37,545 nucleotides of DNA from Candidatus Aminicenantota bacterium. GTDB taxonomy: Bacteria > Acidobacteriota > Aminicenantia > Aminicenantales > Aminicenantaceae. Within the stretch, counting starts at the first letter, position 1. Each line of letters starts with the position of its first letter. Made by a program: the position numbers and the translations under genes. Below are positions 9,475 to 37,545 of this stretch, in pieces. The DNA lies in assembly GCA_029882525.1 (NCBI GenBank), contig JAOUKO010000005.1, positions 1-37,545 on the forward strand, read 5' to 3'. The notes beneath the pieces were generated by a model. The model did not search any database and was not told the DNA's origin. It saw only the letters and a program-made list of their open reading frames with translations.

Positions 9475-12195
9475 TTATTCTTTTCCGACCACCACCCTTA
9501 ATCCGGTGTACTCTGCAGGAGGTGTGTGTGTTTCTGATTCATCCCCGGGGCTTAGAGCACAGCGACCGATTATCCTGCCTCCCCCTTTTTCATCCACAGC
9601 CCATTCAGCGACATTCCCTCCTAAGCCATAGATCATTTCTTCTCCAGGGACCAGGAACCTGTCGACAGGAAGAAGAAGAGGAGTGGAGCCCTTGAGGTCT
9701 TTGATTTTTTTCAAAAGGAGCCGGGCATCGTCCGGGTTGAGGGTGTAACCCGCCCAGTAATCCAGAGTATTTCCGCTCTTGCCCGCCCTTTGAGTCAGTT
9801 TTTCAGCTTCCGAAACCGTGGGCAGGCGGAATGCCTTACCCGTTATCTTTTTAAGCCAGTTCACGTATTTTTTCGCTTGTTCGAAAGTCACACTGCTCAC
9901 CGGATAATTACCCGTTCCTTCTTCATACTTGTATTTTTTATCAAAGGAGGCCCACTGGGCACGGGTGATTTCAAACCGGCCGGCCTCCAGATCTCCCACT
10001 TTGACCAGCTCGGGCACAAGATTTTCTTTCATTTTTTGACCATACAAACTTCCGGATCTGGCGAATGTTCTCTCTTTGAAGGCGAGGTCGAGCGGTGACC
10101 TTTTCTTAAAAGCTTCGTTTTCAGGTTCCTCTGTCTTGAAGAAATAGTTGTCAAACCAGGCGATTTCCTCTTTCATTTTGCGCTGCTGGTGGGTGAGCAT
10201 TCCCAGTCCGTGGGGCTGTCCGGGGAATACGATAAATCTGACCGGGGCTTTCCCGATCTGCTGCAGGGCCCGGTAGTATTCCCAGCCCTGCCCGTAGGGG
10301 ACATTGGTGTCCTCGGTGCCGTGGAAAATGATTGTGGGGACCCTCATCTCTTTAAGGTGGAAGATGGGTGATTTCTCGATGTAGTGTTGAAGCTCATCCC
10401 ATGGTGCGCCTTTGAAATAGTAGTTGTCGAAACTCACGCCAAAAGCGCAGTTGCCGTAATCGCTGATCCAGTTGACATCAGCTGCTCCCACTCCTGCGAC
10501 TTTAAAGCGGTCGGTCCAGACCGAGAGACCGATGGTTAGAATTCCGCCGTTCGACCATCCCATGGTTCCCAGCTTATCCGGGTCCACCATTCCTTTCTCC
10601 ACGAGAGAATCGATTCCTTTCAGCAGGTCCGGTATTTCATACTCATAATAATGACCTTTGATGGATTCGGCGAATTTCTGGCCGTAGCCACCAGAGCCAT
10701 GATAGTTGGCTTTGAGGACATAGGCTCCTTTTTGAGCCATGATATTGGGATAGGCTCCCCAGGATTCTCGAAAGGAGTCCGTGTCCACACCAGTGGGACC
10801 ACCATGGATCATGAGAATCAGGGGATAGCGTTTTCCCTTCTGGTAATCATGAGGATAGTAGAGGACGCCTTCGATCTCCTCATCCAGGGCCCCGACCCAC
10901 TTAATCACTTCTGTCCTGGCCTTGGTCTTATTCGTTAAATGGGCGTTGAGTTCTGTGATTTGCCGCTGGGATTTGAGCACGTTGTCTTCCAGCTCACCCA
11001 GAAACCACTGAGCCGGTTGGGATGCGGTCGTGTATACGTAGAGGGCTGTGTTTTTCGTTTTGTGAAGAATGAGGCCGAAGATGTTCGGGTAGTGATCTCC
11101 TTCCAACTCCTTGTAGCTGAATGAGGTGCCAGTCCTGTAATAACGGCGCCATTTGGGCCGGGCTCCGTTAGCCAGTGAAACAATGAAACCATCTTTTCTG
11201 GCCCACAGGCCATAATAGAAGAGACCCCATTGCCAATCCAGAGGCACTTCAAAATGTTCTCTGGTTTCAAGGTCGAAATAATACAGGAAATCCGCTCCGG
11301 GACCGTCGTGGACATAGTCACTGGTGCGCAGCACTGAGAAATAAAAGCCTTTGTCATCCAGAGTCCAGATAAACCTGCGTGGCTTGAATGTCGGGTCAGG
11401 AAAGAGCTCTGTGCTGGATTTATCCTTGATGTTGATCAGAAAGAATTTGGGCTTGATCTTTGCATCCACTCCGTAGCGAACGCTCTGGTCGTTCCGGGTC
11501 AGGACCCATTTTTTATCATTGGATAGCGTAAATGAGTTGATTTGGTCCGTGTTCTCTGTGAGTCGGGTCAGTTTCTTTTTCTTTATGTCGTAAATGAAGA
11601 GCCGGTAAGGAGCCATATGCTCCTGGTCTTCGACGATGTAGGAGGTGTCCTTCCTTTCCTTTTTCTCTTCCTCGAGCAGGGTCATTTTTTCCCTTGTGAG
11701 GACCAGGAAGCGGTCGTCGTCCATCCATTCGTACCCTCTCACTCCGAACGGAAGACTGGTTATCTTCCAGGGCTCGCCTCCACGTTTATCCATGAGCCAG
11801 ATTTGAGAGCCTGAGCCCGGGCTTTTATCATCCGGGCTTTTCCGGCTGCTGAGAAAGCTGATGAGCTTTGCTGATGGTGACCACATCGGATTGTATTCGC
11901 TTGTGTCTCCCCTGGTCAGCTGCAGAGTTTCCGGCTTTTCATCGAGACTGCTGAGAAAAATGTGGCTGATACTTCTGTCTTTTTCTTTATCCGGAATTGT
12001 TTTGACCCATAAAGCCCAGTTTCCATCAGGAGAAATAGAGAAACTGCCTGCTGATTCCTGTCCGGTCACATCTTCTATTTTCCATTCGGTCTGGGAAGCG
12101 CCTTTCTTTTCTTCTGGGTAGAGGCCGACTGCCAGACAGAAGATAAGAAGAGAAACAGAGATAATTTTTTTTACGTCTTTCATCACCTGCTCCAA
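9475..12195 (-). CDS. Exported S9 (prolyl oligopeptidase/acylaminoacyl-peptidase-like) serine peptidase with C-terminal FGE-sulfatase/SUMF1-like domain
   Basis: N-terminal signal peptide; catalytic GWSNGG, HGTEDTNVPYGQG, PGQPHGLGM; C-terminal ~170 aa with RFEITRAQWASF, PVSSVTFEQAKKYVNWLKKITGKAFRLPTVSEAEKL, GLGGNVAEWAVDE, TGLRVV. Confidence 0.9.
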   Translation of the reverse strand: MEQVMKDVKKIISVSLLIFCLAVGLYPEEKKGASQTEWKIEDVTGQESAGSFSISPDGNWALWVKTIPDKEKDRSISHIFLSSLDEKPETLQLTRGDTSEYNPMWSPSAKLISFLSSRKSPDDKSPGSGSQIWLMDKRGGEPWKITSLPFGVRGYEWMDDDRFLVLTREKMTLLEEEKKERKDTSYIVEDQEHMAPYRLFIYDIKKKKLTRLTENTDQINSFTLSNDKKWVLTRNDQSVRYGVDAKIKPKFFLINIKDKSSTELFPDPTFKPRRFIWTLDDKGFYFSVLRTSDYVHDGPGADFLYYFDLETREHFEVPLDWQWGLFYYGLWARKDGFIVSLANGARPKWRRYYRTGTSFSYKELEGDHYPNIFGLILHKTKNTALYVYTTASQPAQWFLGELEDNVLKSQRQITELNAHLTNKTKARTEVIKWVGALDEEIEGVLYYPHDYQKGKRYPLILMIHGGPTGVDTDSFRESWGAYPNIMAQKGAYVLKANYHGSGGYGQKFAESIKGHYYEYEIPDLLKGIDSLVEKGMVDPDKLGTMGWSNGGILTIGLSVWTDRFKVAGVGAADVNWISDYGNCAFGVSFDNYYFKGAPWDELQHYIEKSPIFHLKEMRVPTIIFHGTEDTNVPYGQGWEYYRALQQIGKAPVRFIVFPGQPHGLGMLTHQQRKMKEEIAWFDNYFFKTEEPENEAFKKRSPLDLAFKERTFARSGSLYGQKMKENLVPELVKVGDLEAGRFEITRAQWASFDKKYKYEEGTGNYPVSSVTFEQAKKYVNWLKKITGKAFRLPTVSEAEKLTQRAGKSGNTLDYWAGYTLNPDDARLLLKKIKDLKGSTPLLLPVDRFLVPGEEMIYGLGGNVAEWAVDEKGGGRIIGRCALSPGDESETHTPPAEYTGLRVVVGKE

Positions 12196-25648: not shown

Positions 25649-26803
25649 CTACTTGAAAGCCGCCATCTCCAGAAGCTGCTGGCCGATGGTCAACTGGTGG
25701 ATCTGGGCTGTGCCGCCGAGTATTGTGGCTGTGATCGCATCCTGATAGTGATGGCCTACCGGATAATCATCGAAAGTTCCGAAGGAACCATGGATCTTAA
25801 CCGCCTGTGAGGCAGCCCAGAGAGCCGTCTCAGCCGCAAAATATTTGGCGTAGGACATCTCTTTGATATGGCGGACACCGCGGCTCTTGAGGTCTGCAGC
25901 GCGGTAGGCGAGCCACCGGGCTGCTTCGGTCCTGGTCGCCATTTCAGCAATTATCTCCTGTATCAACTGGTGGCCGCCGATGGGCTTTCCAAACTGGACC
26001 CGCTCCTTGGCGTACTTTAGACAGGAATCGAGGCAGCTCTGGGCCACACCCACACAGCCAGCAGCCAAAAACAAACGCGCCGTATCAATGCCCCGTAAGG
26101 CATCTCTCAATGCACTCCCGACCTCTCCGACCTGGTTCTCCAGCGGCAGCTCCATGTCGGTGAACTGTAAAGCGCCTTCACTTCCTCCTCTCCAGCTTAT
26201 TCTTCCTTTCATGGGTGTGCTGGAGAAGCCTGGAGTGTCTTTTTCGACGATGAAGCTGGTCAGTCCCTTAAGGCCTTTGCTTTTATCGGTCTGGGCAATG
26301 AACAATACGACATCCGCTATCTCGCCGTTGGTGATGAAGATTTTACTGCCGTTGATGATCCAATGATTGCCGCTGCGGGCAGCGGCGGTCTCGATCATGG
26401 ATGAGTCGCTGCCAGCGTTGGGTTCCACAACGGCTCCAGACATGATCCGTTCCCCCTTACATACTGGAGGCAGGTATTTCTGTTTTTGTTCCTCTGTGCC
26501 GGCATCAAGAAGGTTGGTCGCAGGCTGGATAGGGCCGCTCACTGCCGCCTGGGTTACAGCCAAGCTGGCGTGGCACAGAGACTCCCAGATAACAGCTGAG
26601 GTCACATAGTCAAGCCCCATTCCCCCGTACTTCTCGGGCATATGCGGAGCCAAGAGACCCTGTGAAGCCATTTTTTTTATAATCCCGGGATCAAATTTTT
26701 CCTGACGTTCATTTTCCCTGAGTTTCGGTATGATCTCCTTTTCCGCGAATTTTCGAGCCATATCCCGGGACATCATTTGTTCTTCGGAGAGTTCGAAGTC
26801 CAT
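25649..26803 (-). CDS. Acyl-CoA dehydrogenase family protein
   Basis: MDFELSEEQ; PEKYGGMGLDYVTSAVIWESL; IMSGAVVEPNAGSD; IINGSKIFITNGEIADV; ERVQFGKPIGGHQLIQEIIAEM; IHGSFGTFDDYPVGHHYQDA. Confidence 0.94.
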   Translation of the reverse strand: MDFELSEEQMMSRDMARKFAEKEIIPKLRENERQEKFDPGIIKKMASQGLLAPHMPEKYGGMGLDYVTSAVIWESLCHASLAVTQAAVSGPIQPATNLLDAGTEEQKQKYLPPVCKGERIMSGAVVEPNAGSDSSMIETAAARSGNHWIINGSKIFITNGEIADVVLFIAQTDKSKGLKGLTSFIVEKDTPGFSSTPMKGRISWRGGSEGALQFTDMELPLENQVGEVGSALRDALRGIDTARLFLAAGCVGVAQSCLDSCLKYAKERVQFGKPIGGHQLIQEIIAEMATRTEAARWLAYRAADLKSRGVRHIKEMSYAKYFAAETALWAASQAVKIHGSFGTFDDYPVGHHYQDAITATILGGTAQIHQLTIGQQLLEMAAFK

Positions 26804-26842: not shown

Positions 26843-27241
26843 TCATTCCTTTTTTTCCACCAGTTCAACCAGGATACCATGAGTCCCTCTGGGATGAAGA
26901 AAAACGCTCATTCCCTCTGCCCCCGGTTTTGGATCTCCGAGCACATCCAATCCCGCTGCCTTTATCGAAGCGATTTCAGCATGGATATCGTCCACGTCAT
27001 AGCAGATATGATGGAAACCCTCTCCTCGCTTTTCCAGGAATTTGGCCATGACTCCTTCACTTCCTATAGGCTGGAGGAGCTCGATGAGAGTGCTGCCGAC
27101 TCTGACCATACTGACTCTTATCGTCCCGTCGCCGCCTATGATGGGCTCAGACGATTCCAGCCCGAAAACCGAGCGATAGAACTCCCTCGCCTCTTCAAGA
27201 TTCTTCACTGCCATTCCCAGGTGACTGACCTGTTTGATCAT
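26843..27241 (-). CDS. mce: Methylmalonyl-CoA epimerase-like VOC-superfamily protein
   Basis: QVSHLGMAVKNLEEAREFY; GSTLIELLQP; GFHHICYDVDDI; HGILVELVEK (metal ligands H/E/H/E retained). Confidence 0.88.
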   Translation of the reverse strand: MIKQVSHLGMAVKNLEEAREFYRSVFGLESSEPIIGGDGTIRVSMVRVGSTLIELLQPIGSEGVMAKFLEKRGEGFHHICYDVDDIHAEIASIKAAGLDVLGDPKPGAEGMSVFLHPRGTHGILVELVEKKE

Positions 27242-27561: not shown

Positions 27562-28659
27562 ATGAAAAAGCTAATAAGGGAAAGCATCCTCCGAATTCAG
27601 CAGTATGAACCCGGAATGCCTGCGGAGGTTCTCAAAGGGGAACTTTCTTTAAAGGGAGAATTCAGTAAACTCGCCTCAAATGAAAATCCCCTTGGCCCTT
27701 CACCCCTTGCTGTCGAGGCCATCAAAAAATCTCTTGAGGATGGGAACCTCTATCCGGATAATAGCTGCATCCATTTGAGAGATAGGATAGCCCAATGCCT
27801 GGGAGTCCCCGCAAAAAATCTAGGTGTAGGTAACGGCACTACGGAATTGATTTTCCTCATAGGGGTCGCCTTTTTGAATCCTGGCGAGACTTTCATTATG
27901 AGTGAATCCTCCTTTATCATGGCCAAGATAGTTGCCCAGATTATGGACTGCAATCTGATAGAAGTTCCGTTGAAAGACTACCGGCATGACCTCGATGCCA
28001 TCTTGAAAATGGTCTCCGATGATACAAAACTCGTGTATCTTGATAATCCTATGAACCCAATCGGCACCATGGTTACCCAGCCAGATGTTTCCCGGTTCAT
28101 GGGGGAGATTCCTGAAGATATAATCATCGTCTTCGACGAGGCCTATTTTGAGTATGCAAATAAAGAGAACTTTCCGGATACACTCAGGTTCATTCAAGAA
28201 CGGAGGAATGTAATCGTCCTGCGAACATTTTCCAAGATGTATGGTTTGGCCGGCTTTCGGGTTGGATATTGTGCAGCTCCAGAAGATTTTATTGATGCCC
28301 TCAACAGGGCAAGACCTCCATTCTCTGTTAACCATTTTGCCCAGGTTGGAGCAGCTGAAGCTTTGAGGGATGAGGCCCATATAAAGAAGACACAAGAGAT
28401 CACTGAATCGGGGAAAAGATTCCTTTATGAGAATTTCGAGAGCATGTCTTTGTTTTATATTCCGTCTGAAACGAATTTTGTGACTGTGGATGTAAAGACC
28501 GATGCCCAAAAAATAGCTGATGAATTCAAAAAGAGAAGCGTGATCGTCAGACCTTTGACAATGTACGGGAAACCCACATTTTTAAGAGTGACGATAGGTA
28601 CCCCCGAACAAAACAAGAAGTTTATTGAGGTGCTGCAACAAATTCAGATGAATGATTAG
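27562..28659 (+). CDS. Class I/II PLP-dependent aminotransferase, histidinol-phosphate aminotransferase-like
   Basis: KLASNENPLGPSPLAVEAIKKSL; GNGTTELIFLIG; VFDEAYFEYA; PLP lysine RTFSKMYGLAGFRVGY; LRVTIGTPEQN. Confidence 0.92.
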   Translation: MKKLIRESILRIQQYEPGMPAEVLKGELSLKGEFSKLASNENPLGPSPLAVEAIKKSLEDGNLYPDNSCIHLRDRIAQCLGVPAKNLGVGNGTTELIFLIGVAFLNPGETFIMSESSFIMAKIVAQIMDCNLIEVPLKDYRHDLDAILKMVSDDTKLVYLDNPMNPIGTMVTQPDVSRFMGEIPEDIIIVFDEAYFEYANKENFPDTLRFIQERRNVIVLRTFSKMYGLAGFRVGYCAAPEDFIDALNRARPPFSVNHFAQVGAAEALRDEAHIKKTQEITESGKRFLYENFESMSLFYIPSETNFVTVDVKTDAQKIADEFKKRSVIVRPLTMYGKPTFLRVTIGTPEQNKKFIEVLQQIQMND

Positions 28660-28701
28660 GGATTTCACCGGTCATTTAAAACAGATCCAAAAATAATTAA
28701 A

Positions 28702-30567
28702 GTGGCTGAGAAAGAGACGAGAATCTTATTGGGCAATGCCGCCATAGCCAGAGGTCTTGTTGAAGCTGGCTGTCATGTCGTGACATCTTATCCGGGAACA
28801 CCGAGCTCGGAAATCATTCCCGCCGTGGTGGAGTATAAAAAAGAGTTAGGCCTGAACACTTACATCGAGTGGTCAGCCAATGAAAAGGTTGCCTTTGATA
28901 ATGCCTTGGCAGCCAGCTTAACCGGAAAAAGGTCAGCCGTCGCCATGAAACAGGTGGGATTGAATGTCGCTTCTGATTCTCTGCTGAGTTCAGCATATAC
29001 AGGCGTTATCGGAGGGATGGTCGTTATCAGCTGTGATGACCCAGGCCCGCTCAGCTCACAAACCGAACAGGATTCCCGTTTCTTCGCCATGTTTGCCAAG
29101 GTGCCGGCCTACGATCCTTCGACTCCACAAGAGGCAAAGGAAATGGTCAAGGAGGCCTTTGAGCTTTCAGAAGCGTATCAGATTCCTGTCATTTTGCGTC
29201 CGACGATCAAGGTGTCCCATGCCAAGCAGAGCGTGAAGATTTCGCCGGTGAAAGTGCTCGATAGAAAGGCCGATTTCAAGAAAGACCCAGAGCGGTGGGC
29301 CGCCACTCCCAAATACAGGTTTGTTCTACACAAGAAATTGAATGAGGCCCTCAAGAAAATAGAGGAAAGATTTGAGCAGGAATCCCGTTGGAATTATGAA
29401 GTCAAGGCCAGCCGCGACGCTCCTCTTGGAATCATCACCTGCAGTGTGAGCTTTGCTGTGCTCATGGATATTCTGGAGGAGTTGGACTTAAAAAAAGAAA
29501 TCAATATCTTTAAAGTTGGAACTCCTTTTCCCCTTCCCCAAAAAAGAGTTGCGGATTTCATCGAGAGGCATAAGAGGGTTCTGGTGATGGAGGAGACCGA
29601 TTCTGTTATCGAGTATCAAATAGTTGATAAAAGCAAGGTGCTCGGGAGGCTGACCGGCCACATTCCATTGCAGGGAGAGCTCACTCCGGATGTGATTTAT
29701 GATATCCTGGCAAGAGTTTTGAAAGAGATGGGAATGGCCGATTTGGAGAAGAGCGGGGATGAGCGGCTTGCCAAGCTCATCGAAGACCTGAATATTGATG
29801 TGCGCAGGCCGACCTTATGTGCGGGCTGCCCCGAGAGAGCGGCGTTTTTTGCGATCAAGAGAGCCCTTCCCAGGGCCATCTACAGCAGTGATATAGGCTG
29901 TTACACCCTCGGGCTCAACCTGAAAGCGGTGGACACCGTCCTCGATATGGGAGCTGGCATTACCCTGGCAAGCGGATTTTATCATGCCTATCATCAGGAT
30001 GAAAATGATGTCCCGATAGTGGCGACCATGGGTGACTCGACTTTTTATCATTCGGGCCCGGCTTCACTTTTGAACGCAGTCTACAACAAGGCGAGATTTG
30101 TTTTGGTCATCATGGACAACGAGATAACCGCCATGACAGGGATGCAGCCTACTCCGGGCTCAGGGATAACGGCTGAGGGGAGCAAAGGGGAAAAGATCTC
30201 TCTGGAGGAATTGATTAAAGGGTGCGGAGTGAGATGGATCAAGACAATAGATCCTTACGATGTGGAGAATTTAATAGTACTGCTGAAAGAAGCAAGAAAA
30301 TATACTCAGAAGCGCGACGGAGGCATAGCTGTCATAGTTGCCAGACATCCCTGTCTGATCCGCTATCCGGATGTGTGCAGGGAAAATCCTGTTAAAGTTG
30401 TGATAACCTCTGACTGTGATGGCTGTCAGTATTGCCTGGATTATTTTGAGTGTCCTGCGCTTTATCTGAATGAAGAAAAAGATCGTGTCGAGATCGACCG
30501 GAATTTCTGTGTCGACTGCGGCGTGTGCATCCATGCCTGTCCGAAAGGAGCTATCATACCGGTATGA
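28702..30567 (+). CDS. iorA: Indolepyruvate ferredoxin oxidoreductase alpha subunit (GTG start)
   Basis: VTSYPGTPSSEIIPAV; ThDP motif GDSTFYHSGPASLLNAVYN...IMDN; C-terminal two Cys4 ferredoxin clusters CDGCQYCLDYFECP / CVDCGVCIHACP. Confidence 0.94.
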   Translation: MAEKETRILLGNAAIARGLVEAGCHVVTSYPGTPSSEIIPAVVEYKKELGLNTYIEWSANEKVAFDNALAASLTGKRSAVAMKQVGLNVASDSLLSSAYTGVIGGMVVISCDDPGPLSSQTEQDSRFFAMFAKVPAYDPSTPQEAKEMVKEAFELSEAYQIPVILRPTIKVSHAKQSVKISPVKVLDRKADFKKDPERWAATPKYRFVLHKKLNEALKKIEERFEQESRWNYEVKASRDAPLGIITCSVSFAVLMDILEELDLKKEINIFKVGTPFPLPQKRVADFIERHKRVLVMEETDSVIEYQIVDKSKVLGRLTGHIPLQGELTPDVIYDILARVLKEMGMADLEKSGDERLAKLIEDLNIDVRRPTLCAGCPERAAFFAIKRALPRAIYSSDIGCYTLGLNLKAVDTVLDMGAGITLASGFYHAYHQDENDVPIVATMGDSTFYHSGPASLLNAVYNKARFVLVIMDNEITAMTGMQPTPGSGITAEGSKGEKISLEELIKGCGVRWIKTIDPYDVENLIVLLKEARKYTQKRDGGIAVIVARHPCLIRYPDVCRENPVKVVITSDCDGCQYCLDYFECPALYLNEEKDRVEIDRNFCVDCGVCIHACPKGAIIPV

Positions 30568-31133
30568 AAGTACAGATCGTTTTAGCCGGGATCGGGGGGC
30601 AGGGGATACTGTTTTCTTCAAAGATATTTTCAGAATTGGGGTTGAGGTTGGGTCTGGATGTCATGGGCTCAGAAACCCACGGCATGAGTCAACGGGGTGG
30701 CTCAGTGACCGCTCATCTGAAGCTGGGTGGGTATCAAAGTCCTATGATCAGGACAGACACGGCTGATATTCTCTACTCTTTTGAGGAAAAAGAGACTTAC
30801 AGGACCTTGAGATTCTTGAGAAGAGCAGGCACGTGTTTTATCAATCTTTTGAGCGAGGATCGATTTGATAAAAAAATCCTCGATCATCTTAAGAAAAAAG
30901 AGATAACATTGAGAGCATACGATGCCAGCGGAGCGGCCTCTAAGATCGGATCGATCTTAACTGCCAATATAATGCTCATCGGCTATTCTGTGGGGACAGG
31001 ATTGGTCCCTTTTAGGCACGAGGATTTGAGATGTGTACTGGCATCGGTGAGCAAAAAGAAAGACCTTAAGATGAACCTGAAGGCCTTTGACTCCGCTGTT
31101 CGGGAAGGACGGTCATCCCTAAATCCTCTTTAG
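30564..31133 (+). CDS. iorB: Indolepyruvate ferredoxin oxidoreductase beta (gamma-domain) subunit
   Basis: MKVQIVLAGIGGQGILFSSKIFSELGLRLGLDVMGSETHGMSQRGGSVTAHLKLG; start set to ATG 30564, overlapping the iorA stop. Confidence 0.94.
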   Translation: MKVQIVLAGIGGQGILFSSKIFSELGLRLGLDVMGSETHGMSQRGGSVTAHLKLGGYQSPMIRTDTADILYSFEEKETYRTLRFLRRAGTCFINLLSEDRFDKKILDHLKKKEITLRAYDASGAASKIGSILTANIMLIGYSVGTGLVPFRHEDLRCVLASVSKKKDLKMNLKAFDSAVREGRSSLNPL

Positions 31134-31147
31134 AAAGGAAGGTTATC

Positions 31148-33169
31148 ATGGCTTGGGAAATTTTTGGACGCAATATTCGTAAGATAGGAGTCGTCGGCTC
31201 CGGCAATATCGGACCTGATATCGCTCTCTATTTCAGCAAGGTTATCCATGAGCTGGGAGTTCCTGTCGTGGTTGTCGATATAGCTGAGAAAGCGCTCAAG
31301 TCCGGAGAAGCCCGTGTCAAGGGAAAATTGAGCAGGGGAGTCAAAACCGGAGCATTCCGGAAGGAAGAAGTGGATTCGATGGTCGCCAATATCTCCTGGA
31401 CTGCTGATTACTCTCAGTTGAGTGGAGCCGACCTGGTGGTTGAGGCGGCCACAGAAGACAGGATGATAAAAAGCAAGGTCTTTACTCAACTGGAGAAGAT
31501 CTGTCCTGAGACGACGATATTTGCTTCAAACTCCTCCCATCTGGAACCCGAGATCATTTTCGCAGACTTGAAGAATAGAAAGAGATGTCTGGTTATCCAC
31601 TACTTTTTCCCTGCGGAGCGAAGTATTATCGTCGAGATTGTTCCTGGAAAGGACACCGAATCCGGGATCACGGATTTTGTGATGAAGTTCTACGAACAGA
31701 TCGGCAAGGCTCCGATCAAGGTAAAAAGTCGGTACGGGTACGCGATCGACCCTATATTTGAAGGGATCTTCCTGGCCGCCGCTCTTCTGGTGGAGAAAGG
31801 AATTGGAACCGTTAAGCAGGTTGATGCCATTGCTCAAAAAGCGTTGGGTCTGGGAGTGGGCCCTTTCACCGCGATGAACCTGACCGGGGGAAATCCGATT
31901 ACCCAGCATGGCCTTACCCAGATGCATGAAAAGATCAATCCCTGGTTTCACTGCCCCGGAATCCTGGACAGACAGATCTCGATCGGAAGACCATGGGAGA
32001 CGCCGATGATGGGTGAAGCTGTTGGCTATAATGAGAATGATTTTGAAATGGTGTCGAACCTTATCAAAGGCGCTTTCTTCGGGCTCGTGTGCGAAATACT
32101 CGACTCTGGAATATCGAACATCGCGGATTTAGAGATGGCTGTAGAGAATGCCCTTGTCATGAACCCGCCTTTTCAGACGATGAACAAGATTGGAGTGGAT
32201 AAATCCCTCGAACTGGTTAAAGCCTGCGCCAAGGAATGGCCAGAATTCCCTGTTCCCAAAGTCCTTGGTGAACAGGCTCGGTCCGGAAAACCCTGGAATA
32301 TTCCGTTTGTCTTTAGAGAAGACAAGGACGATGTCGCTGTGGTCACCATTCGAAGGCCAAGGTCATTGAATGCCCTCAATTCCTCAGTCATGATTCAACT
32401 GGCTGAAATATTCACTGATATAAAAAAAGATAAAAAAATAAAAGGGGCTGTCCTGACCGGTTTTGGCGTAAAGGCTTTTGTCTCAGGTGCGGATATCAAT
32501 GTTTTGGCTCGAATAAAGACACCTAGAGACGCAGAAACTGTGGCCTTAGAGGGTCAGGAGGTACTCAACCTGATTGAGAACCTTGGCAAGCCTGTTATCT
32601 GTGCGCTGAATGGTCTTGCCTTCGGAGGCGGGAATGAGCTGGCGATGGCCTGTACGGCAAGGATCGCAAAAAAGGGATTGGCGGTTCTTGTCGGCCAGCC
32701 CGAGCCCAAGCTCGGTGTTATTCCCGGATTTGGAGGAAGCCAGAGGCTCCCTCGAATCGTGGGGCTCGAGAAGGCCTGGCCCATTCTTCGGACTGGAAAC
32801 CCTATCTCTTCATCAGAGGCCATAAAAATAGGCTTGATCAGTGAAGAGGTAGATGGAGATATCAAGGAAGCAGGCATCGCCTTTGCCCAGAAAGTGATTT
32901 CAGGGAAAGTGAAGGTTCTGCCCATAGAAAGAAAGCCGATGAAGGTTCCCGAATCTCTTCCTGAAGTGGACATAGGACATCTTTCTCGGAAGACCGATGA
33001 ATTTCTTAAGAAGGCAATCCTTGAAGGAGCCCGAATGACCCTTGAGGAAGGACTCAAGCACGAAGCCAAGACGTTCGGTGAATGCGCGAGGACCAAGGAT
33101 ATGAGGATCGGGATGGAAAATTTTCTCAAATATGGACCTAAAAAGAATGCTCAATTTTCACACGCGTGA
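31148..33169 (+). CDS. Fused 3-hydroxyacyl-CoA dehydrogenase (N-terminal) / enoyl-CoA hydratase (C-terminal)
   Basis: IGVVGSGNIGPDIALYFSK Rossmann; VIHYFFPAER; crotonase FVSGADINVL, GLAFGGGNELAMACTARIAK, GQPEPKLGVIPGFGGSQRLPRIVG. Confidence 0.93.
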   Translation: MAWEIFGRNIRKIGVVGSGNIGPDIALYFSKVIHELGVPVVVVDIAEKALKSGEARVKGKLSRGVKTGAFRKEEVDSMVANISWTADYSQLSGADLVVEAATEDRMIKSKVFTQLEKICPETTIFASNSSHLEPEIIFADLKNRKRCLVIHYFFPAERSIIVEIVPGKDTESGITDFVMKFYEQIGKAPIKVKSRYGYAIDPIFEGIFLAAALLVEKGIGTVKQVDAIAQKALGLGVGPFTAMNLTGGNPITQHGLTQMHEKINPWFHCPGILDRQISIGRPWETPMMGEAVGYNENDFEMVSNLIKGAFFGLVCEILDSGISNIADLEMAVENALVMNPPFQTMNKIGVDKSLELVKACAKEWPEFPVPKVLGEQARSGKPWNIPFVFREDKDDVAVVTIRRPRSLNALNSSVMIQLAEIFTDIKKDKKIKGAVLTGFGVKAFVSGADINVLARIKTPRDAETVALEGQEVLNLIENLGKPVICALNGLAFGGGNELAMACTARIAKKGLAVLVGQPEPKLGVIPGFGGSQRLPRIVGLEKAWPILRTGNPISSSEAIKIGLISEEVDGDIKEAGIAFAQKVISGKVKVLPIERKPMKVPESLPEVDIGHLSRKTDEFLKKAILEGARMTLEEGLKHEAKTFGECARTKDMRIGMENFLKYGPKKNAQFSHA

Positions 33170-33226
33170 TTCAAGAAAAGACATTGGATTTATCCTTTTC
33201 AATCAGAATATTTTAAGCTGGAGGCA

Positions 33227-34438
33227 ATGATGGCTCTTAAAAAAGCATTTATTCCTTATGACGGATACTGGAGCACGCCCTTTTGCCGCTGGCAGGGGAG
33301 CTTTGCCAATCTCCATTCAATGGAGTTTGCCGCTGAGGTCTGCAAGGGAGCTCTTCCCGCGCGAGGGATCCCGCCGAAGACATTTGACAGCCTGATCCTA
33401 GGCATAACCGTTCCCCAGAAAAGCAGCTTCTACGGAGCTCCCTGGGTGGCCGGGATGATAGGAGCTGCCGGGATAACAGGCCCCACAATCAGTCAAGCGT
33501 GTGCGACCTCGGCGAAATGTGTGGCAGTTGCTTCCGGGGATATAGAACTGGGTAATAATGAAGCGATTCTCGTCGTGACCTGCGACCGGACAAGTAACGG
33601 ACCTCACATCTATTACCCCAACCCTCTGGGCACTGGAGGAACCGGAGATAAGGAAGATTGGGTGTGGGACAATTTTGGCCGTGACCCCTATGCCAAGAAT
33701 GCCATGATCGAGACCGCTGAAAACGTAGCCAGGGAGGCTGGCATCTCTAAGGAAGAACAGGATGAAGTGACCCTTATTCGATACAATCAATACCAGGACG
33801 CCCTCAAAGACAACAGTGCCTTCCTTAACCGCTTCATGGTTGTTCCTGTTGAGGCCAGAGACCCGGCTGGCAGGAAAGTGATAGCGACCGTGACCGGTGA
33901 TGAAGGAGTCTTTCCGACCACTGCTGAGGCCCTGGCCAGGCTGAGACCCGTAATTCCCAACGGGACTGTTACCTTCGGAACTCAGACTTACCCCGCTGAC
34001 GGAAACGCCAGCATGGCCATATCCACCAGGGAAAAGGCCCGCGAACTGAGCCGTGATCCAAATATCGAGATACAGGTCCTTTCCTGCGGCGAGGCAAGAG
34101 CCAAGAGAGGTTTTATGGCCATGTCTATAGTCCCTGCAGCCAGAAAAGCGCTTTCATCTGCGGGAATAGGGATCAAGGACGTCAAGGCGATAAAGACTCA
34201 CAATCCTTTTGCGGTCAATGACATCTATTTCTGCAGGGAGATGGGGATCAAGCCTGGTAACATGAACAATTACGGCTGTTCTCTTATCTGGGGTCATCCT
34301 CAAGGCCCGACCGGTACTCGTTTGATCATTGAACTGATCGAGGAACTGGTGATCAAGGGCGGTGGATATGGTCTATTCGATGGCTGTGCGGCAGGAGATA
34401 CTGCGGCAGCAGTCGTTCTCAAAGTGGACGTGAAGTAA
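33227..34438 (+). CDS. Thiolase-family acetyl/acyl-CoA acyltransferase
   Basis: Nucleophile region TISQACATSAKCVAVASGDI; NNYGCSLIWGHPQGPTGTRLI; FDGCAAGDTAAAVVLKV. Confidence 0.9.
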   Translation: MMALKKAFIPYDGYWSTPFCRWQGSFANLHSMEFAAEVCKGALPARGIPPKTFDSLILGITVPQKSSFYGAPWVAGMIGAAGITGPTISQACATSAKCVAVASGDIELGNNEAILVVTCDRTSNGPHIYYPNPLGTGGTGDKEDWVWDNFGRDPYAKNAMIETAENVAREAGISKEEQDEVTLIRYNQYQDALKDNSAFLNRFMVVPVEARDPAGRKVIATVTGDEGVFPTTAEALARLRPVIPNGTVTFGTQTYPADGNASMAISTREKARELSRDPNIEIQVLSCGEARAKRGFMAMSIVPAARKALSSAGIGIKDVKAIKTHNPFAVNDIYFCREMGIKPGNMNNYGCSLIWGHPQGPTGTRLIIELIEELVIKGGGYGLFDGCAAGDTAAAVVLKVDVK

Positions 34439-34511: not shown

Positions 34512-36896
34512 TTACTTGATCTTTTTCAGTGCGGCCAGTATCTTTTCCGGTGTGATGGGCAGGTCGCGGATCCGGACACCGACGGCGTCGTAGATGGCGT
34601 TGGCAATGGCCGGGGCAGTGGGAACCAGACCGGGCTCAGCGACTCCTTTTGCTCCAAAGGGTCCGTAGCTGTCATCGGTCTCGATGAACTCGAGGTCGAT
34701 GGGAAAGTTCATGTCACAAACACTGGGGATTTTATAATCCCTGAAATTCGGGTTCATGATCTTCCCCTGCTGAGACTGGAGCTCTTCGTAAAGAGCGTAA
34801 CCCAAGCCCTGAGCGAGTGCCCCGTAGATCTGGCCTTTGAGCGCCAGGGGATTCAGGACTTTACCCACATCATGGGCCGCGACCATGCGGAGGATCTTGA
34901 CCTCTCCTGTCTCGGTGTCTACCTCAACTTCTGCACCCTGAGTTCCGAAAGCATAGGTGGCAGAGATATTCCCCAATCCTTTTTCAAAGTCAGGAAGTTC
35001 GTTCGGAGGGTCGTAGAAGACTTCCGTGGTCAGCATCTGGCCCTGGGTGCGAAAGTGGACAGCCCGCAGCAGCCGTCCCAGCTCCAGCCGCAGCCAGGGT
35101 TCCTGAGGACTGTCCTTGATAAAGATAAATCCGTCGTGCAGCTCGAAGCGGTCGCGCCTGGCCGCCTTCATAACATCGAATTTCGGCGGCTTATAGCCAG
35201 GATTTTTCTCTCTATACTTTTTGAGGTTTTGTTCTGTTTCTCTGGGAAAGAATTCTTCGGCCAGTTCGAAGATCTTACTCCGTAGCTTGTTCGCCGCAAG
35301 AATAGCCGCATTACAGGCCATAAAGGCGCCGCGGCTGGCATGCGTTCCCACATCCCAGGGGCACGTTCCTGTGTCTGTGGGGTTGATGATTACCTGCTCA
35401 GGCCTCACTCCCAGAGCCTCAGCCACGGCCAGCGTCAGGACCGAATGAAGTCCCTGCCCCATCTCCACACCGCCGTGAAAAACATTCACGTTGCCGAAGT
35501 CATCCAGTTTGAGGATCAGGCCGCTGGCATCTGACCGGTAGATTCGTCCTCCTCCACCCACATGAATCAGAGAAGCCATGCCTACTCCGGAACGTTTTCC
35601 TTTTTTGCGTTTTTTCTTCCAGTCCAGCTTCCTGGCAACGGTTTCCAGACACTCTTTAAGACCACAGGTGCTGACTTTCAATCCCATGGGGGTGGTCTCG
35701 TTGGGCTGGTTGCGGTTCAGCATCCGGAAGTCGAACGGGTCGATCCCGGCTTCTTCGGCCAGTTCATCCATGTTGCTTTCCAGAGCCCAGGTATGTTCGG
35801 GATTGCCGTAGCCGCGCATAGCCTGACAAAAGGTATTGTTTGTGTAGACCAAGCGGGCGTTAAAATACACATTGGGCACCCGGTAGAGAGAGGTGGCCGG
35901 CATCATCATCACCGACGGATAGGTCGCTCCCCAGGATGTGTAGGCTCCGTTATCTTGAAGCACCTCGACCTCGCGGAAAGTGAGCTTACCGTTCTGGTCA
36001 CACCCCTGGATGATTTTGGTGATGGATGATTGTCGAGGCGAAAGGTTGGCAAACTCTTCGGTTCGGGTATAGACGATCTTCACCGGACGGCCTGTCCGGA
36101 AGGCCAGCAGGATGGCGATATACTCGTAGGCGTGGGTATCCAGTCCCGACCCAAAAGCTCCCCCGAGAGTGGGAACGATGACGCGCGTGTTCTTGCCGGG
36201 CAATCCCATATCGGAAAGAGCCCGGTTGAAATCACGCTGGGCCAGAAAAGGTATCTGGGTTTTGGCCCAGATGGTCAGGTTATTGCTCATGTCGAACTCA
36301 GCGATGCATCCCGCTGTTCCCAGGCAGCATTGCTGCACCATCGGGGTCGAGTACTCTCCTTCGGCAACATATTTTGCGGTACGCTTTCCCGCTTCCAGGT
36401 CGCCGGATTCGTGATGGAACTTCAGAGGAATAAGATTGTCTGTCCTGGGGCGGCCCTGGGGATCGCTTTCGTGAATGAGGGGAGATCCTTCCTTCATCGC
36501 CTCATGGGGACAGAAGACGCCCGGCAGAGGTTCGTATTCCACTTCGATCAGCTCGACAGCCTCTTCAGCGGTTTCAGGATCGATGGCGGCCACAGCGGCA
36601 ATTTCGTCCCGGTAATGACGAACCTTGTCTTTTTTCAGGGCAAAGTTATCCCGCAGGAAGCCGAAGCGGATTTCCGGAGTGTTGGCGGCAGTGATCACTG
36701 CCCTTACTCCGATCAGCTTTTCGGCTCTGGAGGTGTCGATACGCTTGATCCGGGCATGAGGGTGGTCGCTGAACTTGATTTTCCCGTAGAGCATTCCTGG
36801 ACGCTCGAGGTCATGAATGTAAAGGGCTTTGCCGGCAGCCTTATCAGGGCCATCAGGCCGGGATGCTTTTTTCCCGATATGGTAAAAGTCTGTCAT
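34512..36896 (-). CDS. Xanthine dehydrogenase family molybdopterin-binding large subunit
   Basis: DGPDKAAGKALYIHDLERPGMLYGKIKFSDHPHARI; TLGGAFGSGLDTHAYEYIAILLAFRTGRPVKIVYTRTEEF; AMRGYGNPEHTWALE; GGVEMGQGLHSVL; GAKGVAEPGLVPTAPAIANAIYDAVG. Confidence 0.94.
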   Translation of the reverse strand: MTDFYHIGKKASRPDGPDKAAGKALYIHDLERPGMLYGKIKFSDHPHARIKRIDTSRAEKLIGVRAVITAANTPEIRFGFLRDNFALKKDKVRHYRDEIAAVAAIDPETAEEAVELIEVEYEPLPGVFCPHEAMKEGSPLIHESDPQGRPRTDNLIPLKFHHESGDLEAGKRTAKYVAEGEYSTPMVQQCCLGTAGCIAEFDMSNNLTIWAKTQIPFLAQRDFNRALSDMGLPGKNTRVIVPTLGGAFGSGLDTHAYEYIAILLAFRTGRPVKIVYTRTEEFANLSPRQSSITKIIQGCDQNGKLTFREVEVLQDNGAYTSWGATYPSVMMMPATSLYRVPNVYFNARLVYTNNTFCQAMRGYGNPEHTWALESNMDELAEEAGIDPFDFRMLNRNQPNETTPMGLKVSTCGLKECLETVARKLDWKKKRKKGKRSGVGMASLIHVGGGGRIYRSDASGLILKLDDFGNVNVFHGGVEMGQGLHSVLTLAVAEALGVRPEQVIINPTDTGTCPWDVGTHASRGAFMACNAAILAANKLRSKIFELAEEFFPRETEQNLKKYREKNPGYKPPKFDVMKAARRDRFELHDGFIFIKDSPQEPWLRLELGRLLRAVHFRTQGQMLTTEVFYDPPNELPDFEKGLGNISATYAFGTQGAEVEVDTETGEVKILRMVAAHDVGKVLNPLALKGQIYGALAQGLGYALYEELQSQQGKIMNPNFRDYKIPSVCDMNFPIDLEFIETDDSYGPFGAKGVAEPGLVPTAPAIANAIYDAVGVRIRDLPITPEKILAALKKIK

Positions 36897-37372
36897 CGTC
36901 TTCCTTTGAGCTGCCGAGCTGCCTTTTTCACGGCTTGGATGATCTGGACATAACCGGTGCAGCGGCAGAGGTTTCCCTGCAGGGCATTCCGGATATCGTC
37001 TTCAGAAGGTGCCGGGTTGGAATCGAGAAGAGCTTTGGCTGACATGATCATCCCGGGTGTGCAGAAACCGCACTGGATCGCGCCTTCCTCGACAAAAGAT
37101 TTCTGGAGGACAGACAGCTCATTTTTTGGGCCCTGCAGACCCTCGATGGTTGTGACGCTCTTGCCTTCAACCTCAAGAGCTGGATAGAGGCAGGAATTCA
37201 CGGCCCGGCCGTCGATGATGACCGTGCAGGATCCGCATTCTCCCTCGCCACATCCCTCCTTGGTTCCGGTCTGCCTCAGAGGACCGCGCAGGACGTCGAT
37301 CAACCTATGGTGGCCCTCGACCGCCACTCTGACTTCCGAACCGTTGAGAATAAAAGAAATCTCCGTCTTCAT
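36893..37372 (-). CDS. Xanthine dehydrogenase family [2Fe-2S] small subunit
   Basis: GCGEGECGSCTVIIDGRAVNSCLYPALEVEGKSVTTIEGL; CGFCTPGMIMSAKALL; GNLCRCTGYVQIIQAV. Confidence 0.96.
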   Translation of the reverse strand: MKTEISFILNGSEVRVAVEGHHRLIDVLRGPLRQTGTKEGCGEGECGSCTVIIDGRAVNSCLYPALEVEGKSVTTIEGLQGPKNELSVLQKSFVEEGAIQCGFCTPGMIMSAKALLDSNPAPSEDDIRNALQGNLCRCTGYVQIIQAVKKAARQLKGRR

Positions 37373-37545
37373 GGCTGGCTCCAGTCCAGAGCTTTTTCGA
37401 GTGCACGCTTCACCAGAACGCCAATAATTTGACGACGGTATTCTTCGGTGGAGCGAATGTCTGTGATCGGAATGATATTGTCCTCAGCCAATCGTTGGGC
37501 TCTGGCAACTGCCCTCCTGGAAATAGCGGCTCCTTCGAACAAGGC
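37369..37545 (-). CDS. Xanthine dehydrogenase family FAD-binding medium subunit, C-terminal 58 aa only (runs off window)
   Basis: Manual reverse translation ends ...ITDIRSTEEYRRQIIGVLVKRALEKALDWSQP*; ATGA overlap with the small subunit. Confidence 0.85.
   Translation of the reverse strand, partial: ALFEGAAISRRAVARAQRLAEDNIIPITDIRSTEEYRRQIIGVLVKRALEKALDWSQP

Follow-up and report, generated by a model that had tools for sequence, protein, structure and literature searches.

Gene content of the locus

We analysed a 37,545-nucleotide stretch (hereafter the window) from a Candidatus Aminicenantota bacterium (assembly GCA_029882525.1, contig JAOUKO010000005.1), which carries a candidate gene cluster for degrading an amino acid through acyl-CoA esters. 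Its core is a run of five plus-strand genes: a pyridoxal phosphate (PLP)-dependent aminotransferase of the HisC family (27562-28659); IorA, the alpha subunit of indolepyruvate:ferredoxin oxidoreductase (IOR), with a C-terminal 2x[4Fe-4S] domain (28702-30567); its partner IorB (30564-31133); a fusion of 3-hydroxyacyl-CoA dehydrogenase and enoyl-CoA hydratase in that order (HAD-ECH; 31148-33169); and a divergent thiolase (33227-34438). The intervals between them are 42, -4, 14, and 57 bp, confirming an earlier reading of this DNA (the original prediction) that the five genes are consecutive and tightly spaced. The start of IorB was corrected to the ATG at 30564, where homology begins; its ATGA overlaps the stop of IorA by 4 bp.

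IorA exceeds the cut-off of TIGR03336 (661.6 versus 650.9 bits). IorB falls below that of TIGR03334 (115.6 versus 205.8 bits), while its Pfam POR domain scores above cut-off. All eight Fe-S cysteines of IorA are invariant among orthologues, as are the catalytic residues of HAD-ECH (H151/E163 and E497/E519) and thiolase (C92, H357, and C387), all of which are present in the window.

On the minus strand lie an acyl-CoA dehydrogenase lacking the catalytic glutamate, with LGGT in place of YEGT (25649-26803), and a VOC protein of the methylmalonyl-CoA epimerase family (26843-27241) that passes TIGR03081 (116.1 bits, cut-off 115). Both had been predicted as divergently encoded. Beyond 34438 the cluster extends into a three-subunit molybdenum (Mo) hydroxylase of the xanthine dehydrogenase (XDH) family, also on the minus strand. 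Its large subunit belongs to the XDH / 4-hydroxybenzoyl-CoA reductase family (34512-36896) and is followed by the 2Fe-2S subunit (36893-37372) and the C-terminal 57 codons of the FAD subunit, XdhM (37375-37545), where the contig end cuts the gene.

Conservation of the cluster

We surveyed 40 relatives for orthologues of the core genes. IorA was found in 6 of the 40 (72-81% identity), HAD-ECH in 7 (71-78%), and thiolase in 7 (78-84%), with one partial copy each for the latter two. The closest HAD-ECH orthologues were all in metagenome-assembled genomes of Candidatus Aminicenantes; among the matches listed, plasmids yielded just remote ones (~27-33% identity). Across 41 genomes, and with p-values uncorrected for kinship, HAD-ECH co-occurred with IorA (6 shared genomes, p = 4e-5) and with a B12-dependent mutase described below (7 shared genomes, p = 3e-6).

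In Aminicenantes, HAD-ECH adjoins thiolase wherever both are captured together. IorAB and HAD-ECH lie on the same strand in relatives but with 2.3-6.7 kb of other genes between them. In G024 and G012 the intervening genes encode AOR, an Fe-S protein, and a sodium symporter; G007 has genes for an aminotransferase, a deacylase, and a glutamine synthetase there, and G015 one for a GWxTD protein. The direct junction of IorB and HAD-ECH occurs in the window genome only. Thus, the gene set keeps one neighbourhood across relatives but the tight operon is not kept. Besides the window, seven Aminicenantes loci show IorAB or IorB linked to HAD-ECH, and several of the others are short contigs. Only in Aminicenantes does IorAB lie within 10 kb of a HAD-ECH gene.

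Related clusters in Syntrophaceae and other deltaproteobacteria (L065-L067, L069-L077, L092, and L106) share HAD-ECH (~61% identity), a mutase (~61%), and both hydantoinase subunits with those of Aminicenantes. They differ in carrying a GntR regulator and in lacking IorAB throughout, and many also encode an AMP-forming CoA ligase. Each of the 14 HAD-ECH loci of this type has the regulator and both subunits (S and L) of a mutase of the methylmalonyl-CoA mutase (MCM) type. Hydantoinase alpha occurs in 13 of them, the beta subunit in 11, and the ligase in 9; IorAB occurs in none (flanks up to 10 kb).

A TrpB-like PLP enzyme adjoins the aminotransferase or IorAB at three loci (L035:11130-12521, by TIGR01415; L063:1674-3065 and L089:570-1958, by clustering), which may be regarded as a circumstantial link to tryptophan.

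Candidate genes for the intermediate steps

Single contigs of G012 and G024 carry the aminotransferase, IorA, and IorB together with HAD-ECH, thiolase, the three Mo hydroxylase subunits (XdhL/S/M), a CaiB/Frc-type (family-III) CoA-transferase, an OYE protein, a ferredoxin, a second epimerase, mutase S and L, HyuA, and HyuB. G015 and G007 have almost the same set with some rearrangement. Orthologues of the Mo hydroxylase large subunit occupy the same position in relatives and are 81-85% identical. In the window genome, these middle genes are mostly found on two contig fragments: C166, with OYE, ferredoxin, and the start of the second epimerase; and C8, with a partial mutase gene (C8:3-851, residues 255-536), HyuA, and HyuB. 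Placing them after C310, which ends in XdhM, gives an order (C310-C166-C8) that matches the relatives.

Searching with a deltaproteobacterial mutase and hydantoinase identified close mutase orthologues (60-65%) in Aminicenantes, which share a contig with the IorAB/HAD-ECH cluster in G024, G012, G015, and G007. In a phylogenetic tree, the cluster mutase forms one clade with mutases beside deltaproteobacterial HAD-ECH, apart from generic MCMs, with support of 100/100. It retains the MCM residues Tyr89, Arg207, and Tyr243-His244; a free-carboxylate substrate is therefore expected.

The hydantoinase branch takes in predicted 2-oxoindoleacetyl-CoA lactamases (PMC5214803), and the indoleacetate (iaa) pathway has the lactamase IaaCE (PMC8453981). 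By family and context, HyuAB of Aminicenantes is a putative iaa-type lactamase. One Syntrophaceae locus carries a second hydantoinase alpha (L069:10963-13068) downstream of its own, 73% identical to the Aminicenantes type.

A dehydrogenase without a catalytic base

The window dehydrogenase reads ILGGT where short-chain enzymes read IYEGT, and it has alanine at the position of the isovaleryl-type glutamate. LGG is also found in G024, G012, G015, and G003, and is assigned by orthology to a neighbouring gene in G004. G007 instead has a dehydrogenase with an exact GGG motif beside the mutase. Glutamate is replaced by glycine in all Aminicenantes orthologues read; among the other dehydrogenases, those with a readable motif retain it.

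In IaaF enzymes, which oxidatively decarboxylate benzylmalonyl-CoA, YEG is replaced by GGG; methylmalonyl-CoA epimerase acts on the same compound in vitro, and iaa operons of strict anaerobes carry a paralogue of electron-transferring flavoprotein (ETF) (PMC8360864). In G015, the epimerase, dehydrogenase, FixC, a 92-amino-acid open reading frame (ORF), and ETF subunits stand in a row. We propose that the window dehydrogenase is an IaaF-like decarboxylating (2-aminobenzyl)malonyl-CoA dehydrogenase, and that the VOC protein is either an arylmalonyl-CoA epimerase or an ordinary methylmalonyl-CoA epimerase.

Proposed pathway

The window probably holds the first and last steps of a cluster by which Candidatus Aminicenantes would degrade tryptophan anaerobically, built on the iaa pathway. 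Gene presence, neighbourhood, families, active-site residues, and the mutase clade were read from sequence, and from these we infer every substrate, direction, and co-regulation of the pathway. The aminotransferase would convert tryptophan to indolepyruvate. IorAB, standing in for a CoA ligase, would oxidize this to indoleacetyl-CoA with release of CO2 and reduction of two ferredoxins. The Mo hydroxylase would then oxidize C2 to give 2-oxoindoleacetyl-CoA, whose ring the ATP-dependent lactamase HyuAB would open to (2-aminophenyl)succinyl-CoA. After a CoA-transferase step, the B12 mutase would form (2-aminobenzyl)malonyl-CoA. Following epimerization, the base-less dehydrogenase would oxidatively decarboxylate this product to 2-aminocinnamoyl-CoA, and HAD-ECH would hydrate and oxidize that in turn. 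Thiolase would finally split 2-aminobenzoylacetyl-CoA into acetyl-CoA and 2-aminobenzoyl-CoA, the latter entering a benzoyl-CoA-type ring pathway.

This proposal accords with the original prediction in two respects. Conversion of an amino acid through its 2-oxoacid to an acyl-CoA plus reduced ferredoxin is supported as an interpretation, with a neighbourhood conserved in relatives, and further degradation of the acyl-CoA rather than its hydrolysis for ATP is likewise favoured, although by an altered mechanism. The idea of IorAB feeding the beta-oxidation-like half directly is not supported, so that the prediction as a whole is partly supported. Arylacetyl-CoA esters have no side-chain beta-carbon and therefore cannot enter beta-oxidation directly. 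Since neighbouring genes appear to cover the steps in between, the most likely substrate for HAD-ECH and thiolase is an arylacrylyl-CoA formed late in a pathway of the indoleacetate type.

The iaa pathway has indoleacetyl-CoA, the expected IorAB product, as its first CoA ester, usually made by a ligase (PMC8360864). No CoA ligase corresponding to IaaB was recognised in the Aminicenantes clusters, which have IorAB instead, and the cluster would therefore be a variant functioning like the iaa pathway rather than a plain member of it. We are evenly divided on the fuller proposal of a complete ligase-free tryptophan route, with IOR feeding the iaa pathway directly and the LGG dehydrogenase adding another type to the oxidative decarboxylases that lack a base.

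The iaa pathway of Aromatoleum aromaticum and A. evansii, whose components include IaaB, IaaL, and IaaGH (PMC8360864), has a CoA-transferase, an MCM-type mutase, a glutamate-less acyl-CoA dehydrogenase, and a hydantoinase-type lactamase (PMC8360864, PMC8453981). The Aminicenantes clusters offer a mutase of this type, a dehydrogenase without the glutamate (LGG, or GGG in one relative, rather than uniformly GGG), a candidate lactamase, and, in relatives of the window genome, a CoA-transferase. Aminicenantes differ in having IorAB and an aminotransferase where the iaa pathway has a CoA ligase, and in their extra OYE, ferredoxin, and AOR genes. A Mo-cofactor dehydrogenase, HAD/ECH fusion, and thiolase, all present in the window cluster, reportedly belong to iaa clusters as well. 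Pyrococcus-type peptide fermentation, running from aminotransferase through IOR to an ADP-forming synthetase, has the aminotransferase and IorAB in common with the window, where no synthetase gene is adjacent and the product is apparently routed to further degradation. Among the matches listed in literature searches, few of them on Aminicenantes, none linked Aminicenantes to the iaa route, which is not evidence of novelty.

Several observations count against this interpretation. The window genome, which is incomplete, yielded no copy of the CoA-transferase, whose expected place coincides with an assembly gap, and the OYE protein has no explained role. Aminicenantes HyuA and HyuB are only ~35% and ~32% identical to those beside deltaproteobacterial HAD-ECH. 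The deltaproteobacterial hydantoinases may serve another lactam, and given this divergence the 'iaa' label for their clusters is therefore a prediction as well. The window motif is LGG, not GGG as in published IaaF enzymes, and sulfinopropionyl-CoA desulfinase and the butyrobetainyl- and pimelyl-CoA enzymes likewise lack the glutamate (PMC8360864). The existence of a second epimerase makes assignment of the window epimerase ambiguous. The aminotransferase satisfies TIGR01141, a histidinol-phosphate transaminase model (320.6 bits, cut-off 276.6), and is nearest to such transaminases. A second HisC homologue above cut-off lies elsewhere in the window genome (C24), on a contig too short to show a histidine-gene context, and either of the two may serve histidine synthesis. 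In G007, the aminotransferase gene has a 4-bp overlap with a gene for an ADP-forming acyl-CoA synthetase, a hint that the IorAB product may be used to conserve energy, and both fates of the acyl-CoA may therefore coexist. Finally, likeness to the Aromatoleum Iaa proteins was judged by family, motif, and context.

Alternative explanations

The alternative that survives best, which we nevertheless consider unlikely, is that two unrelated systems are neighbours: an aromatic amino-acid fermentation unit (aminotransferase and IorAB, joined in relatives by AOR or an ADP-forming synthetase) beside an iaa-like or other lactam or arylsuccinate pathway fed from outside. The synthetase overlap in G007, the AOR and sodium-coupled transporter that relatives encode between the two halves, and the distance separating those halves speak for this reading. 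However, the linkage persists in the seven further Aminicenantes loci, and a pathway fed from outside would lack activation, as the clusters have no recognised CoA ligase. In addition, the window genome already owns a second IorAB with an ADP-forming synthetase. On contig C206 (L038:635-5373), IorA2 without a ferredoxin domain and IorB2 are followed directly by a 792-amino-acid ADP-forming acyl-CoA synthetase, which by its gene content is a classical IOR-synthetase operon. The noted absence of such synthetases holds within the window only, as the genome has several.

Quite improbable is the oxidation of isoleucine or another branched-chain amino acid, in which IorAB would make an acyl-CoA from the 2-oxoacid for the dehydrogenase, HAD-ECH, and thiolase, with propionyl-CoA passing through methylmalonyl-CoA epimerase. 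Every gene class required is in the window, including the epimerase above its model cut-off. Yet the dehydrogenase has no base for alpha-proton abstraction at either the usual or the isovaleryl-type position, and IorA passes the indolepyruvate equivalog cut-off. The conserved lactamase and Mo hydroxylase would stay unexplained, and the window genome has separate generic MCMs and glutamate-bearing dehydrogenases.

We regard as very improbable that an equivalent series of reactions (Mo hydroxylation, hydrolysis of a lactam, the mutase step, and oxidative decarboxylation) serves another N-heteroaromatic or arylsuccinate substrate, with IorAB giving a different arylacetyl-CoA. The Mo-hydroxylase and lactamase families are broad, the specificities here may be other than those proposed, and the divergence of HyuAB fits such a substrate. 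Against this, tryptophan is the only common 2-oxoacid precursor known to yield an arylacetyl-CoA whose ring nitrogen can form such a lactam. Least probable of all is direct beta-oxidation of IorAB-made arylacetyl-CoA by the adjacent HAD-ECH and thiolase, which has the tight spacing in the window genome in its favour but lacks a beta-carbon to act upon and is largely refuted by the gene order of relatives, where the adjacency is not kept.

Ring metabolism and other features

For the proposed tryptophan route, we considered the fate of the aromatic ring. The ring-opening hydrolase Oah scored above cut-off on contig C131 (L152) of the window genome. Genes near it encode a Mo enzyme resembling 4-hydroxybenzoyl-CoA reductase, an activase for acyl-CoA dehydratase, an HGD-D subunit, and an ADP-forming synthetase. 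This contig likely holds a benzoyl-CoA-type module, and the presence of these genes with Oah on one contig makes downstream ring metabolism plausible. No type I or II ring reductase is in the window, and a full reductase was not established on C131. The AOR gene between the halves in relatives was considered as a BamBC-type benzoyl-CoA reductase and rejected, as it scored 381 bits with Pyrococcus AOR and 180 bits with BamB.

In Gemmatimonadetes (L083, L084, L085, and L091), HAD-ECH adjoins a Mo hydroxylase of three subunits, and all but one of these four loci also have a thiolase of the same type (56-59%). L085 has two BcrAD-type and two HGD-D proteins, as by gene clusters does L084 and, in part, L083 and L091.

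Elsewhere in the window, a 906-amino-acid ORF (9475-12195) matches Dpp5-like peptidases and, near its C-terminus, PvdO/GldK-type proteins, which suggests an unusual domain fusion. Scans for promoters (sites at chance level) and terminators (12 terminator-like sites versus 8.4 expected) were uninformative.

Implications

If true, the proposed route would single out tryptophan or indoleacetate as a substrate that can be tested for uncultured Aminicenantes. A ligase-free route would save the ATP spent by IaaB and yield reduced ferredoxin. The LGG and GGG enzymes are natural variants for testing whether acyl-CoA dehydrogenases without a base rely on decarboxylation in place of proton abstraction. 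More broadly, the cluster would show how a known anaerobic auxin pathway can be connected to an entry enzyme of amino-acid fermentation.

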